This document shows, in pieces, positions 44,094 to 53,204 of a stretch of 64,000 bases of DNA. The notes under the pieces were generated by a model. The model was not told where the DNA came from and did no database searches. It saw only the letters and a program-made list of their open reading frames with translations. Each line of letters starts with the position of its first letter. Position 1 is the first letter of the stretch. The stretch is from Methanobacteriota archaeon (GTDB taxonomy: Archaea > Thermoplasmatota > Poseidoniia > Poseidoniales > Thalassarchaeaceae): positions 100,437-164,436 of the forward strand of contig JABIKU010000025.1 in the NCBI GenBank assembly GCA_018654845.1. The letters run 5' to 3'. The translations under genes were made by a program, and so were the position numbers.

Positions 44094-45272
44094 ATGGCAG
44101 GATACCTCGACCGCATCGGCGCTGGCAAAATCCTTCGGGATAAAGCACCTTTTTCTTTCGATTGGACGCCGCCAGCTTTGGTCAGTCGAGACGACGAGTT
44201 GGAAGAACTCGCCGGTTTGTTTTCACATATCGGCAGTAATGGTTCCAGTGGGAGAGCAATCATCACCGGCCCTGTTGGAACTGGAAAAACGATTTTGACA
44301 AGAAAATTTGGTGAAGATTTGCACCGACATTTACACGAGGTTCGTAAAATCACACTTGCCCATGTAAATTGTAGGAACCATCCCTCTGCATCCCAAGTAC
44401 TGCAACAAATTGCTATATCTCTCGATTCTGGACATCCAGAGCGCGGACTGAGTTCTGGCGAAATTATTCAATCAATTCGCAGAAATCTGCTCGCGCACAA
44501 TTTGCATCTATTACTTGTACTAGATGAGGTTGATGTGCTAATTCGTCGTGATAATTCAGACCTCATTTACAAGCTTCTTCGAATCGATGAAGGCAAGGAA
44601 CACCAAGGGTCAATCTCACTTATTCTCGTCAGCCAAGACTCAACTCTGTTAACGTTATTCGAGCCAGCAATAATTTCACGGCTTGGTGCCAGTAATCTTC
44701 TCGAATTGGCGCCATATGATCAATCTGGACTCTCGGCTATCGCTCGTCAACGTGCCGACGCAGCTTGTATCACCGGCACGGTTGGTGAAGAAGTTCTGAC
44801 AAGAATCGGCGCGCTTGCTTCTGGCAGTGGAGATGCGCGTATTGCCATCGAGCTACTCGATGCCGCCGTTCGCCGCGCCGAAAAAGCAGGTCGTGGAGAG
44901 ATCACTATCGCGGATGTTTTGCCTAGTACACTTCGTTCTGCCTCACTCGAGCCGAGTCAGGTCGATTCACTTTCAAAAGATCAAAAATTAATCATGCTCG
45001 GCCTATGCAGACGGTTGAAAAAATCTGGTGAGATAACGAGTGGTGATGCAGGGAAATTATACGCATTAGTATGTGAGGAATTTGAAGTAAAACAACGAAG
45101 TTATACGACATTCTGGAAACACCTGAAGTTTCTTGAAAGTGAGGGATTAATTGAAACACGCAAGGCAAAATCAACAGTGGGAAGAGGGCGAACAACTCAC
45201 ATTACGATGAACAGCATTGCACCCGCTAATCTAGAAAGTAGAATTGAGAAAGATTTGCAACGAGGGATATAA
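44094..45272 (+). CDS. cdc6: Orc1/Cdc6 replication initiator
   Basis: Archaeal origin-binding AAA+ ATPase of 392 residues. Walker A GPVGTGKT is at 59-66, Walker B LLLVLDEVDVL at 139-149, sensor 1 LILVSQDS, and sensor 2 GSGDARIAIELL with its arginine. The C-terminal winged helix (about 300-385) ends in TVGRGRTTHITMN, which fits DNA contact. In archaea an origin often lies next to orc1/cdc6, and the upstream gap holds a striking GC palindrome. A short GC hairpin overlaps the stop codon. Confidence 0.95.
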   Translation: MAGYLDRIGAGKILRDKAPFSFDWTPPALVSRDDELEELAGLFSHIGSNGSSGRAIITGPVGTGKTILTRKFGEDLHRHLHEVRKITLAHVNCRNHPSASQVLQQIAISLDSGHPERGLSSGEIIQSIRRNLLAHNLHLLLVLDEVDVLIRRDNSDLIYKLLRIDEGKEHQGSISLILVSQDSTLLTLFEPAIISRLGASNLLELAPYDQSGLSAIARQRADAACITGTVGEEVLTRIGALASGSGDARIAIELLDAAVRRAEKAGRGEITIADVLPSTLRSASLEPSQVDSLSKDQKLIMLGLCRRLKKSGEITSGDAGKLYALVCEEFEVKQRSYTTFWKHLKFLESEGLIETRKAKSTVGRGRTTHITMNSIAPANLESRIEKDLQRGI

Positions 45273-47816: not shown

Positions 47817-49856
47817 CTAACTCATTCCGGCTGTAGCAGAAATTGCTGTGGCGGCCGCACCGCTGAGTTTGAAAAATCGGGTGCGGCCTTGCTTTCGAAC
47901 GGAAAGTATGCCAGCTTTTTGCAAGCCATTGTAAATTTGTGACAAGCGCGGTCGACCAACTTCCAAACGCGCTTGTAATTCATTATCGGAAGGAGAAATT
48001 TCACGCACAGATGCAGCTTCGAGAACCATTCTCTCAGAATCAGATAGTGTGTGGAATTTTTGCGGATTGAGAGGGAGGTCGTCATCCCAAAGTGGGGCGA
48101 ATGATAGAGGAGTCTGTACAGTTTGTCTTGGTTGTTCGATAACTCCGAACGGCAACTGAATCGGTTCAAGACGTTCTGGAATTGGTTGAACAGAAGGGAG
48201 CAATGGTATTTCAGGAGGGGGAGAAATCGGTTCATCACTGACAATTTCTTCAGTGTAATCTTCTTCGAATTGAGGTGTCTCTTCGATAATTTGCTCTTTT
48301 TCAGTTTCCATTTCTTCCTCATATGCCGACTTCAGATTCAAATCAGGTAAAGTATTTCCAAGCGATTGATCGACAAACCATTCAGCACTATCGCTTGAGA
48401 ATACATGTTCTTCAGCAATTTTCGTGATAGAACGGTCGAGTTTTGCTGGCATTTCATAACTTTCGGGTGGAGATTCAATTTCAAAATGACCCGGGGCTTC
48501 TTCGGTTTCAACAGTGTCGAGCGGTCTTTTTTGGTTTGGTGGTGGACTCGGTTGATTCCTAACATGGTCTGCATAGATGATTTCGGTCTCATCTAGTCCC
48601 TTCGGCATTTCGTCAGTTGTCTTAGCCAAACGTTTCCTCAAACCTCCAAATGAGCCACCCCCGTATACGCTAGCAGGGGGTTCGGTTCCAGATTGCATGA
48701 AAAGCTCGGTTTCTGGTTCAGGAACGTATGGCTCAGGCTCAGGATATTCATTTTCTAGAACTTCGATGCGGGATTCTTCATCATCTTCTTCGGTTTTCGA
48801 TTCGACTTTAGCATCGTCAATCCAATCAATTTCTGAATTGCCGAAATCATCAGTCCAATCGAGTAGTGTCGATTCATCCGGGGTATTTTCGCTCTCGTCT
48901 ATATCCCATAGATCATCTGGTTCTTCATCGATAAGCTCTTCTTCAGATTCCTCGGCAGAAGCAGGAGAAAAAGGCTCAGATATTTGCAAATCTTCTTCCT
49001 GAGATATTGATTCTGAAACAATTGGCTCAATGATTTGAGTAGGAGGATTGACTACTCTCCATGACATTAATTTAGCCAAGGTGCCCACCCTACCCAAATT
49101 TCGTCGTTCATCGACTAAATCACGAAGTAACTTCAGAACATCTCGCGGATTACCCCCCGTATGGTTATGAATTGCTTCTAGCAATATTGGTTTGATGTTC
49201 CACATCTCCCTCGATCGCGTCTTTGTTCTGATATTGACCATTTGTTGAATTTCGGCCTTTGAGAATCCTATCAATCGATCGGTGATATCGAATAGATCAA
49301 TCACCCCATCTCCGAGAGCATTGAGTTGAGAGGGAGTAATCGTGACTATGACGAAGGCGCGAAGACGAGAAAGGGTTGGAGCCATTAAGGGGAGAATTCT
49401 CCCAAGATCGATATGAGATGGGTAATCGAATGCGATTATCGGCAATGGACCAGAAATATCATCTAGACTAGAAATTAATTTTTGTGATAATAAATTCATT
49501 GAGCTTGGAATTTCAAAATCTCCGAAATGAATAGTCATCTCTTGTAAAATTGATTTAACTGGATCTTGCAACTCTGGATAATATTGAGAGATATAACGCT
49601 GAGTAGTTAGAGAAGAAACTGTGTTGACTATCGAAGTCCGTCCAGAACCAGGCTCACCAACTAACAATACCATTCTCGGTGAATGAGAATGAATATGGTC
49701 GCGCCACTTTGCTAGCAGAGGTTGGTGGCCAACTAGTTCGTGTGCACGAGAAGCTTCGATGGGGCGACCATCGAATGGGTTTCCCCGGAGAGGAGGTAGT
49801 TCGAGTAGATTTACTCCTCGCTCGTCCATATGCGCGTTGCGTAGCGGCGAGTACAT
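47817..49856 (-). CDS. AAA ATPase with long acidic linker and C-terminal winged helix
   Basis: Unrecognised architecture of about 679 residues. The N-terminal AAA domain has a Walker A-like GEPGSGRTS in which the essential lysine is arginine (position 73 from this start), a Walker B-like IIAFDYPS, and a sensor 2-like HTGGNPRDVLKLLRDL. This arrangement resembles Orc1/Cdc6-type proteins. Residues about 285-595 are very rich in Glu, Asp, Ser and Pro and probably disordered. The last 75 residues form a winged helix (SDSERMVLEAASVREISPSD, then RPRLSQIYNGLQKAGIL). Alternative starts are GTG 49865 and ATG 49829. Immediately upstream lies an array of TTAACGC sites, which this protein may bind (inferred). 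Role in replication, segregation or transcription is open. Confidence 0.72.
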   Translation of the reverse strand: MYSPLRNAHMDERGVNLLELPPLRGNPFDGRPIEASRAHELVGHQPLLAKWRDHIHSHSPRMVLLVGEPGSGRTSIVNTVSSLTTQRYISQYYPELQDPVKSILQEMTIHFGDFEIPSSMNLLSQKLISSLDDISGPLPIIAFDYPSHIDLGRILPLMAPTLSRLRAFVIVTITPSQLNALGDGVIDLFDITDRLIGFSKAEIQQMVNIRTKTRSREMWNIKPILLEAIHNHTGGNPRDVLKLLRDLVDERRNLGRVGTLAKLMSWRVVNPPTQIIEPIVSESISQEEDLQISEPFSPASAEESEEELIDEEPDDLWDIDESENTPDESTLLDWTDDFGNSEIDWIDDAKVESKTEEDDEESRIEVLENEYPEPEPYVPEPETELFMQSGTEPPASVYGGGSFGGLRKRLAKTTDEMPKGLDETEIIYADHVRNQPSPPPNQKRPLDTVETEEAPGHFEIESPPESYEMPAKLDRSITKIAEEHVFSSDSAEWFVDQSLGNTLPDLNLKSAYEEEMETEKEQIIEETPQFEEDYTEEIVSDEPISPPPEIPLLPSVQPIPERLEPIQLPFGVIEQPRQTVQTPLSFAPLWDDDLPLNPQKFHTLSDSERMVLEAASVREISPSDNELQARLEVGRPRLSQIYNGLQKAGILSVRKQGRTRFFKLSGAAATAISATAGMS

Positions 49857-49891
49857 AATGTTCACGCTTAATTACGCTTCTACAGGCCAAA

Positions 49892-50026
49892 TTAACGCTT
49901 TATTTATTCAGTGGAATTACAATAACGCTAAAATTTTGCTTAATTAAAGGATATTTTGCAATATTATTAACGCAATATTAACGCTTTACAGATGCGTTAA
50001 CGAAGCGTTAACGGCCATATTAACGC
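49892..50026. repeat. Array of TTAACGC sites between the AAA-wHTH gene and HMG-CoA reductase
   Basis: TTAACGC occurs forward at 49892, 49967, 49978 and 50020, and reversed (GCGTTAA) at 49994 and 50005. The forward pair and the reversed pair are each spaced by exactly 11 bp and face each other around 49989. Weaker relatives (ATTACGCT at 49871, ATAACGCT at 49922) extend the array towards the AAA gene. It occupies the longest non-coding stretch of the window (49857-50234), which is AT-rich and has no reading frame I can support. Confidence 0.8.
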
Positions 50027-50192: not shown

Positions 50193-50234
50193 AGAGATTA
50201 GAAATGAAATGGTGTGGCAAGGAGCGGTGGAAAC

Positions 50235-51530
50235 ATGCCCGTTGACAATAGTCGTTTGAAAGGATTCTACAAACTCTCTGTACCAGAACGAAGAGCTATG
50301 CTTGCAGAAATTGCAGAACTTAGTGATGAACAGGTTGCTGCTTGGGAGAATGCAGAACTAGACGAGGGCACTGCCGATCGAATGATTGAGAATGTCATTG
50401 GACGTTATTCCCTACCCATTGGAGTCGCTACTAATTTCATTATCGACGACGAACATTACCTAATTCCATTCGTAGTCGAAGAGGCTAGTGTTGTTGCTGC
50501 CGCTTCTAACATGGCAAAGAGGTGTCAAGCAAAAGGCGGGTTTACTTCCAATAATACAGACCCAGTTATGATTGGGCAAATTCAAATCGTCGGTTGTGAA
50601 AATCCCTCTGACTCTAGAGATGCGATTCTCGCCGCCAAGGATGAATTGATTCAATCATGTAATGATGTTGACCCAATCCTAGTCAAATTCGGCGGCGGTT
50701 GTAAAGACGTCGAAGTTCGTATTATCGAAACCATGTCGGGTCAGATGGTTATCGTCCACATCTTAGTAGATTGTCGAGATGCAATGGGGGCTAATGCAGT
50801 GAATACCATGGCAGAAACTATTGCTCCTCAAATCGAATCTATCTCCGGCGGAACAGTAATCCTTCGCATTATCAGTAACCTAGCAGTCCACAGACTTGCA
50901 CGCGTAAGTGCCACCTTTACACCCGAGGAGATGGCAGATACAGGAACTGATGCAACACGTGGCACCGAAGTAATCAATGGAGTGATTCAAGCCTATCATT
51001 TCGCTGCAGCTGACCCATTTCGAGCAACTACACATAACAAGGGTATCATGAATGCAATTTCACCAATCGCTATCGCTTGTGGACAAGATTGGCGAGCCAT
51101 TGAATCTGGCGCTCACTCTTATTGTGCATATGGAAGAGAATATGGCTCAATGACACATTGGGAAAAGGACGACGATGGCAACCTAGTCGGCTCTATTGAG
51201 ATACCAATGGCGGTCGGCCTCGTAGGTGGAGCGATTCGAATCCATCCAGGCGCCCAAGCAAATGTCGCCCTCCTCGGTATCAATTCCGCTGACCAATTAG
51301 CAAAATGTATGGCAGCTGCTGGATTAGCACAGAATCTCGGCGCTCTTCGTGCACTGGCTACGGTTGGGATTCAAGCAGGACACATGAAACTGCATCTTCG
51401 CAATATGTGTGCAAGCGCTGGCGCAGAAGAATCTGAAATCGAAGCTGTGGCAAATAAGGTTAGAGAAAGTGGCGAGCGAATCACCATGGCAGCTGTCGAA
51501 GCGGCTCTAAATTCAGTACGAGGCAACTGA
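50235..51530 (+). CDS. mvaA: Class II hydroxymethylglutaryl-CoA reductase
   Basis: Reduces HMG-CoA to mevalonate, the committed step to isoprenoid membrane lipids in archaea. The class II signature ENVIGRYSLPIGVATNF is at about residues 48-64; DCRDAMGANAVNTM carries catalytic residues, and the C-terminal GHMKLHLRNM holds the conserved histidine. Most archaea use class I; class II is the bacterial-type enzyme found in a few archaeal lineages including this group. ATG 50235 is preferred to GTG 50214 because an AAGGAG/GGTGG ribosome-binding region lies between them. Cofactor (NADH or NADPH) is not predictable here. Confidence 0.93.
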   Translation: MPVDNSRLKGFYKLSVPERRAMLAEIAELSDEQVAAWENAELDEGTADRMIENVIGRYSLPIGVATNFIIDDEHYLIPFVVEEASVVAAASNMAKRCQAKGGFTSNNTDPVMIGQIQIVGCENPSDSRDAILAAKDELIQSCNDVDPILVKFGGGCKDVEVRIIETMSGQMVIVHILVDCRDAMGANAVNTMAETIAPQIESISGGTVILRIISNLAVHRLARVSATFTPEEMADTGTDATRGTEVINGVIQAYHFAAADPFRATTHNKGIMNAISPIAIACGQDWRAIESGAHSYCAYGREYGSMTHWEKDDDGNLVGSIEIPMAVGLVGGAIRIHPGAQANVALLGINSADQLAKCMAAAGLAQNLGALRALATVGIQAGHMKLHLRNMCASAGAEESEIEAVANKVRESGERITMAAVEAALNSVRGN

Positions 51531-51571: not shown

Positions 51572-52198
51572 CTATTCTTCAGATTGAGCACTAACTTCAG
51601 CCGTAGATCCCTCTTCTGCTGAGAATTCTGTAATTGTCATTTGCTCATCTGGTGCTAAAGAAGCTGCTAACTGTGCACTGGTCAATCCCATCTTAGCCGC
51701 CTCTGCCCTGAACCAAGTTCGAACGGCTCGATATTCAACCTCAGGACAACCAAAATATTCTGCAAATCGCCTAGTCGTCGTTAGTCTACGAGTTAAACCG
51801 TCACGACGACGATCTATCAATCCCAAATTCGCCAAATCTCGAACGTGATCATAAGCTCTCTGACCGAGCATTTCAACCAATTGGGATTGAGCCATCGGTT
51901 GATGATAAGCAATCAATGCAGCCGCTGGCAATAATCGCTGAGGAGTATCTGGTCGGAATGAGTCAGGCAAGTGCTCTGAGAGATTTGGTCTGACTTCGAA
52001 AATCCATCTCCCAGAAACCTCTGTTAATTGAAGAGCTGAATCTTGACGGCGTTTGATTCTTGCTTGAAGTTCAGATAGGGCTGCCTCAACTATTGCATTT
52101 GATTTTTCGACAATTACCGCTAATTCAGCAGTTGACATCGAGCGTCCAGATGTGAATAGAATTGCTTCTAGGATGACAGAGAGACTCACTTCAGACAT
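51572..52198 (-). CDS. scpB: Segregation and condensation protein ScpB
   Basis: Kleisin-associated subunit of the Smc-ScpAB complex that organises and segregates chromosomes. Two winged-helix domains are expected; visible family features are ILEAILFTSGRSMSTAELA at the N-terminus and PAAALIAYHQPMAQSQLVEMLG leading into RGLI-like NLGLIDRRRDGL...YFGCPE. About 208 residues. The ATG overlaps the scpA stop by 8 nt, so translation is coupled. The C-terminus is acidic and Ser-rich (SAQSEE). Confidence 0.9.
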   Translation of the reverse strand: MSEVSLSVILEAILFTSGRSMSTAELAVIVEKSNAIVEAALSELQARIKRRQDSALQLTEVSGRWIFEVRPNLSEHLPDSFRPDTPQRLLPAAALIAYHQPMAQSQLVEMLGQRAYDHVRDLANLGLIDRRRDGLTRRLTTTRRFAEYFGCPEVEYRAVRTWFRAEAAKMGLTSAQLAASLAPDEQMTITEFSAEEGSTAEVSAQSEE

Positions 52199-53204
52199 CT
52201 GCAATAACACCACCTAATAGGTCACTTTTCGGATTTAATCGCTCACTTAAGGCTAAGAAATCAGTATCACTTTGATGTAAATTTTGTAAAGAAATCATGC
52301 CGTTTTTCCCAGGTTCTTGAGTTAAATCAGCATAGCCTCGGAGAGTTAGAAATAACGAAGAAACCAATGCTGTAACCTGTGCTTCGGCTGATGCTTCATC
52401 ATCTGAAAATCCTTTTTCGATTGATTGTTGCTTTAATGATTCGACAATATCGCCGAGATTGACGATACCACTGTTTTCCATCGTCCTATCACGGAGAACA
52501 TTCCAAGTTCTGCAAAGATCTGCTTCCAAATCTTCGACGTGAATGCTACCTTTGAATCGGGCTCGAGCTTGCTCATGTGCTTCGCGTCGCTCTTTGGCGA
52601 TTTGCTCGCGCAATCGTTGTTGTTCCGAAAGGCGACCTGCTGCTTGTAATCCCATCAATAATTCACCCAAGGTAACTGGTCGACCTTCGTCACGATGAAT
52701 TCTGCCTTCAAACATCGATGGCAAAATATCTGAGGCTTGGCCAGAGAGGACTGTAGCCGAGAAATTGTAATCTTCATCTGAAAATTCTGTTTCCCAAGTA
52801 TCGTGGAAATCCCAGATGTCTTGTTCTTCTTCATCGAGGAGGGCTTTTTCTTGGCGCTCGATTAATGTCGATGCTTGGCCGCGAAGAATTGCCCAAGCCA
52901 TTCTGACAAGGCGACCGCATGTTGGTAAATCGATGTTTTCTGCCTCATCAATTCGCTTGTTGAACATCTTCAGAAAAGCGCTTAAATCAACATTCCAAGG
53001 GTCGAGGTCGCTCGATTGGAACATTTGGAATACTAGAGCGACAGAACGGTCGAACGGGTCGATGAGGAATTGATGCTCAGCCTCTTCGAGTTGAGAAAGT
53101 TCGACCAACCTGTCGAGATATTGACTAGTTTGAAGGTCGGCTTCGCCGATCATGAGTCGGGAAACTATGTCTTCCTTCATCGCTGTACCATCGAAAATTC
53201 CCAT
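52191..53204 (-). CDS. scpA: Segregation and condensation protein ScpA (kleisin)
   Basis: Kleisin that bridges the two heads of the Smc dimer. The N-terminal part contains the typical FDRSVALVFQMFQSSDLDPWNVDLSAFLKMF block, comparable to the bacterial F-x-G-PLDLLLxLI...IDIxxI region. The C-terminal winged helix is near residues 275-325. Length of 337 residues is longer than the bacterial average of about 250, with extra charged sequence around residues 140-210. It sits between smc (9 bp) and scpB (overlap) in one operon. Confidence 0.88.
   Translation of the reverse strand: MGIFDGTAMKEDIVSRLMIGEADLQTSQYLDRLVELSQLEEAEHQFLIDPFDRSVALVFQMFQSSDLDPWNVDLSAFLKMFNKRIDEAENIDLPTCGRLVRMAWAILRGQASTLIERQEKALLDEEEQDIWDFHDTWETEFSDEDYNFSATVLSGQASDILPSMFEGRIHRDEGRPVTLGELLMGLQAAGRLSEQQRLREQIAKERREAHEQARARFKGSIHVEDLEADLCRTWNVLRDRTMENSGIVNLGDIVESLKQQSIEKGFSDDEASAEAQVTALVSSLFLTLRGYADLTQEPGKNGMISLQNLHQSDTDFLALSERLNPKSDLLGGVIADV

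Follow-up and report, generated by a model that had tools for sequence, protein, structure and literature searches.

We found that the gap between two divergent genes of a Poseidoniales archaeon carried an array of short TTAACGC boxes, and that this array was a real, phased and essentially single-locus element throughout the order Ca. Poseidoniales, also called Marine Group II archaea. The array lay in a window of 64,000 nucleotides, which was the whole stretch of DNA analyzed and was part of contig C26 of a genome that was 86% complete. One flanking gene encoded a protein, here called AAAw (47817..49829, minus strand), which consisted of an AAA+ domain, an acidic linker and a winged helix. 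The other, divergent to AAAw, was the HMG-CoA reductase gene (50235..51530, plus strand; Pfam PF00368, E 1e-104). The array was probably an autoregulatory or divergent operator bound cooperatively by AAAw.

Six exact copies of TTAACGC or its inverse GCGTTAA spanned 49892-50026, with five inside 60 bp and intervals of 11, 11 and 15 bp, and all were at the positions claimed in the original prediction. The copy at 49892..49898 (plus strand) had an orthologous site in most genomes of family f1. The main cluster contained two plus-strand copies 11 bp apart (49967..49973 and 49978..49984), two minus-strand copies 11 bp apart (49994..50000 and 50005..50011), and a last plus-strand copy (50020..50026). 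The array was bigger than these six copies, with degenerate boxes extending coverage to the AAAw side of the gap. Three such boxes were on the plus strand. TTCACGC (49861..49867) was directly upstream of the AAAw TATA-like element, in the BRE position, and was conserved in several f1 genera. ATTACGC (49871..49877), 10 bp from it, was conserved in relatives, and ATAACGC (49922..49928) was read in the intergenic sequence.

The frequency of the motif was counted in the genome of the window. There were 82 TTAACGC copies in 1,546,747 bp, and the cluster was unique. The density of the other 76 copies predicted 0.0066 per 135 bp, which gave a probability of about 1e-16 for six or more. Chance clustering was ruled out by this count and by the shuffles described below, so the earlier claim that the cluster was not accidental stood, and the motif was not equally frequent elsewhere. 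The extended motif occurred at just two places outside the array in this genome, and a regulon-wide motif was therefore dismissed. An RNA element was also dismissed, because there was no Rfam match and the inverted boxes fitted DNA sites between divergent promoters better. A bacterial promoter scan gave nothing useful, its promoter models being for the wrong domain of life.

Conservation was then examined in related genomes. At least two sites were present in 63 of 63 orthologous loci and at least three in 62. The 63 intergenic regions held 404 boxes, where dinucleotide shuffles gave 43 ± 6. Pairs on the same strand 11 bp apart numbered 115, compared to 0.07 in the shuffles. These loci were not independent, being all related and in some cases one assembly present in two collections. 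The box spacings were 11, 22, 42 and 53 on the same strand, 5, 16, 27 and 38 for facing boxes, and 3, 15 and 26 for boxes back to back. These values fitted one 11-bp helical phase, which meant a single helix face, as had been predicted from the 11-bp spacing in the window. The consensus was RTTAACGCNTT in f1 and similar in family f2, and the TAACG core was invariant. When GCGTTAA-N2-4-GCGTTAA was searched in 60 genomes, 46 of 49 matches were at the AAAw locus, and a reversed control gave 2. The inspected paired-box matches away from the locus were at other loci, without an array and without the locus neighbors. The predicted clusters upstream of AAAw orthologues were present in every locus that spanned the gap. 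The array was down to two or three boxes in genus g8 (L220, L063), and in the GC-rich genus g16 (L221, L222) the first T of the box had drifted to G or C while TAACG was kept. A literature search by motif string returned no relevant match among the matches listed, and no paper in the collection searched mentioned Poseidoniales together with GC skew or with HMG-CoA reductase.

The AAAw reading frame opened at 49865, and its conserved start was the ATG at 49829. AlphaFold modeled the AAA+ domain and the winged helix confidently and the linker as disordered. The AAA+ domain (residues 24-271; 49053..49796, minus strand) was delimited by AlphaFold, Foldseek and alignment. Its best Foldseek match was Cdc6/Orc1 (2qby, E 4e-8), with RuvB, RFC and TnsC close behind, and it had the fold and lid of the Orc1/Cdc6 type. 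In the Walker A motif (GxxGSGRTS), arginine (R76) replaced lysine to give GxxGSGR in at least 90% of orthologues. In Walker B, D147 was invariant and the next residue was not conserved as acidic. The acidic linker (48066..49052, minus strand; about 330 residues) had pLDDT mostly below 50. Two motifs, FGGLxxR with the invariant R412 and the invariant W496, were kept amid this disorder and might bind partners.

The C-terminal winged helix (47820..48065, minus strand) was ArsR-type by sequence and by fold, and its fold matches were the ArsR/MarR regulators HlyU, CzrA and SqrR. SPSD and the RxR(L/M)SQ recognition helix were invariant, compared to 22-46% identity over the rest of AAAw in most genera. 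The Cdc6_C, Cdc6_lid and TIGR02928 models did not match the AAAw protein. One of 19 AAAw winged helices matched Cdc6_C, at an E of only 0.006. AAAw shared the AAA+ fold of the Orc1/Cdc6 initiators, but their Cdc6-type winged helix, Walker A lysine and Walker B D-E pair were missing. The neighboring gene had been described as an Orc/Cdc6-like AAA-wHTH gene. This was right for the AAA+ fold but not for the ArsR-type winged helix and the substituted Walker A, and the true Orc1/Cdc6 gene of the locus was a different one (44094-45272). AAAw was an undescribed combination of an Orc1/Cdc6-like AAA+ domain with an ArsR-type winged helix. Because the recognition helix and the TAACG core were both invariant, covariation of motif and winged helix was uninformative. 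Such an invariant pair would be expected of a protein and site dedicated to each other, which is circumstantial support for AAAw as the binder.

We assigned the promoter elements by eye. A tentative TATA-like element (49852..49860, minus strand), conserved in sequence, preceded the conserved AAAw start by about 23-31 bp. A genome-wide A+T bump at -28..-25 (near -26) slightly favored this assignment. The AAAw start was 16 residues before an NPF motif in most f1 genomes and 15 in most f2 genomes. Boxes abutted the TATA-like element in several f1 genera (GCGTRA-N4-GCGTGAA) and were just upstream of it in f2. Conserved sites were therefore found at the regulator's own promoter, as looked for in an autoregulatory operator, with the TATA-like assignment being tentative. 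On the other side, the HMG-CoA reductase frame opened with a GTG at 50214, with an in-frame ATG at 50235, and the distance from the array to this gene varied from tens of bp to about 200 bp.

The array in Poseidoniales was always between AAAw and HMG-CoA reductase. In genus g5, the block of Cdc6, ribosomal protein S6e and eIF2-gamma, which lay on the AAAw side in the window, was inverted, and the order of AAAw, array and HMG-CoA reductase was unchanged. Of 60 relatives, 59 had an AAAw homologue. In a set of 244 genomes of the class, almost all Poseidoniales had one as well, and Marine Group III gave marginal matches only. This sister order had the HMG-CoA reductase gene, and the array was absent there. 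The block rearrangements and the absence from Marine Group III indicated that the array followed AAAw and, inside the order, HMG-CoA reductase. Twelve Poseidoniales genomes were without a convincing AAAw. Ten of them were also without HMG-CoA reductase, and in the remaining two the contigs began near or within the array, so these absences pointed to assembly gaps. The co-occurrence of regulator and sites held across genomes and represented one evolutionary gain only.

The original prediction had offered three functions for the array: a replication origin, a loading site for Smc-ScpAB and an autoregulatory operator. In the first of these, AAAw would be a dedicated initiator, as in oriC-cdc6 or Sulfolobus oriC3-whiP. 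Archaeal origins usually adjoin their initiator gene, and these genes are diverse (PMC4010727). The Poseidoniales array resembled orc1/cdc6 and oriC3-whiP origins in having repeated intergenic boxes beside an AAA+/winged-helix gene. There was one array per genome, the gene was single-copy with an AAA+ domain closest to Cdc6/Orc1, and an Orc1/Cdc6 gene was within about 5-9 kb throughout the order. However, that gene block inverted independently of the array, and AAAw was not a recognized Orc1/Cdc6. The boxes were also short and, unlike the haloarchaeal ORBs described in PMC4010727, had no G-run. A cumulative-skew check near 50 kb had been suggested; raw GC skew was too noisy, and third-codon-position AT asymmetry (AT3) was used. 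In G037, a single contig of 2.06 Mb, the array was at 0.695 Mb, and AT3 was -0.017 ± 0.005 before it and -0.028 ± 0.005 after it. The best change-points were at 0.08-0.10 and 1.22 Mb, so the array was within one asymmetry domain, with the same sign on either side and far from both. In G009 (354-kb contig), AT3 was near +0.04 on both flanks. In the genome of the window and several f2 genomes the asymmetry weakened toward the HMG-CoA reductase side, which was not independent evidence since the gene content was common to them. Neither G037 nor G009 thus had a reversal where the array lies, although a weak or secondary origin could go unnoticed in this test. A main origin at the array was therefore unlikely, and with the missing Walker A lysine and the ArsR-type winged helix, we considered the origin and initiator reading improbable as a whole. 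Some side observations were made on replication genes. The reversal of AT3 at about 1.22 Mb (G037:C1; L252, L253) was sharp and was the clearest replication-type landmark of that genome, and a search around it found no array-like repeats. Each Poseidoniales genome had two Orc1/Cdc6 genes, a divergent one at the AAAw locus and a better-conserved one elsewhere (G000:C35:47514-47717 in the genome of the window). In three f2 genomes (L174, L187, L188), a common GGGGGACTCGGACT stretch upstream of the better-conserved gene was a candidate regulatory or origin element.

Another possibility was that AAAw marks the array as a centromere-like site or as a place where Smc-ScpAB is loaded. Beyond HMG-CoA reductase lay ScpB, Smc and, between them, a gene occupying the place of ScpA. 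The middle gene (52191-53204) had no Pfam or NCBIfam match and was a candidate for a diverged ScpA. The three genes adjoined HMG-CoA reductase in most genomes, and the clustered sites at a single locus near Smc-ScpAB were laid out like bacterial parS clusters. However, this linkage was not constant. In L054, L058, L064 and L138, ScpAB-Smc was not adjacent, and AAAw, array and HMG-CoA reductase were unchanged, so the proposal was not supported. The sites were not a parS-type palindrome, a profile search found no ParB-like domain in AAAw, and the G037 array was far from either change-point. We regarded a loading site as very improbable. A broader version, in which AAAw and the array form an order-specific replicator-initiator or chromosome-organizing pair with one marked site per Poseidoniales chromosome, was unlikely, though less so than the others. 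The remaining alternative was that another regulator binds the array, chiefly for HMG-CoA reductase and the mevalonate pathway, and that AAAw is merely linked. The binder could be another protein because, inside the order, the array was linked no less constantly to HMG-CoA reductase than to AAAw. Against this, Marine Group III kept HMG-CoA reductase but had neither the array nor a convincing AAAw, and the conserved sites abutted the AAAw promoter whereas the distance to HMG-CoA reductase varied. These results suggested that control by another regulator was doubtful, to much the same degree as the origin.

The autoregulatory operator was thus the best reading of the three options, with conserved sites abutting the AAAw promoter. 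The phasing, conservation and co-occurrence also made a cooperative site of the neighboring AAA-winged-helix protein the best reading, as had been proposed, and the part concerning binding itself was kept as our inference. The winged helix of AAAw would bind the 7-bp boxes (RTTAACGCNTT, core TAACG) on one helix face, and AAAw would spread cooperatively along the 11-bp-phased boxes. Those abutting the AAAw TATA-like element would limit its own transcription, giving a putative autorepression. Binding at the main cluster may also determine how strongly HMG-CoA reductase is expressed, which was uncertain because the array distance was variable. The arrangement was similar to ArsR/MarR autoregulatory operators, as the winged helix had the ArsR fold and the sites were by its own promoter and a divergent gene. 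ArsR/MarR-type operators consist of one inverted repeat. In contrast, the Poseidoniales array had five to nine 11-bp-phased boxes, and AAAw added the Orc1/Cdc6-like AAA+ domain and the long linker to the winged helix. For an operator that serves simple autoregulation this number of boxes was large, and the genome of the window showed no further regulon. A plain repressor model left the Orc1/Cdc6-like AAA+ domain unexplained.

Poseidoniales are described as having no cultured representatives and as the most abundant archaea in the plankton of ocean surface waters (PMC6461757). In such an abundant and uncultured group, an order-wide array with a likely protein partner gives a handle on gene control. 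AAAw itself is unusual: its AAA+ domain is Orc1/Cdc6-like but has a substituted Walker A, its linker is long and acidic, and its DNA reader is of the ArsR type. An AAAw that marked an origin or a centromere would represent a new type of initiator. One that regulated HMG-CoA reductase would be a candidate controller of membrane-lipid synthesis in archaea.
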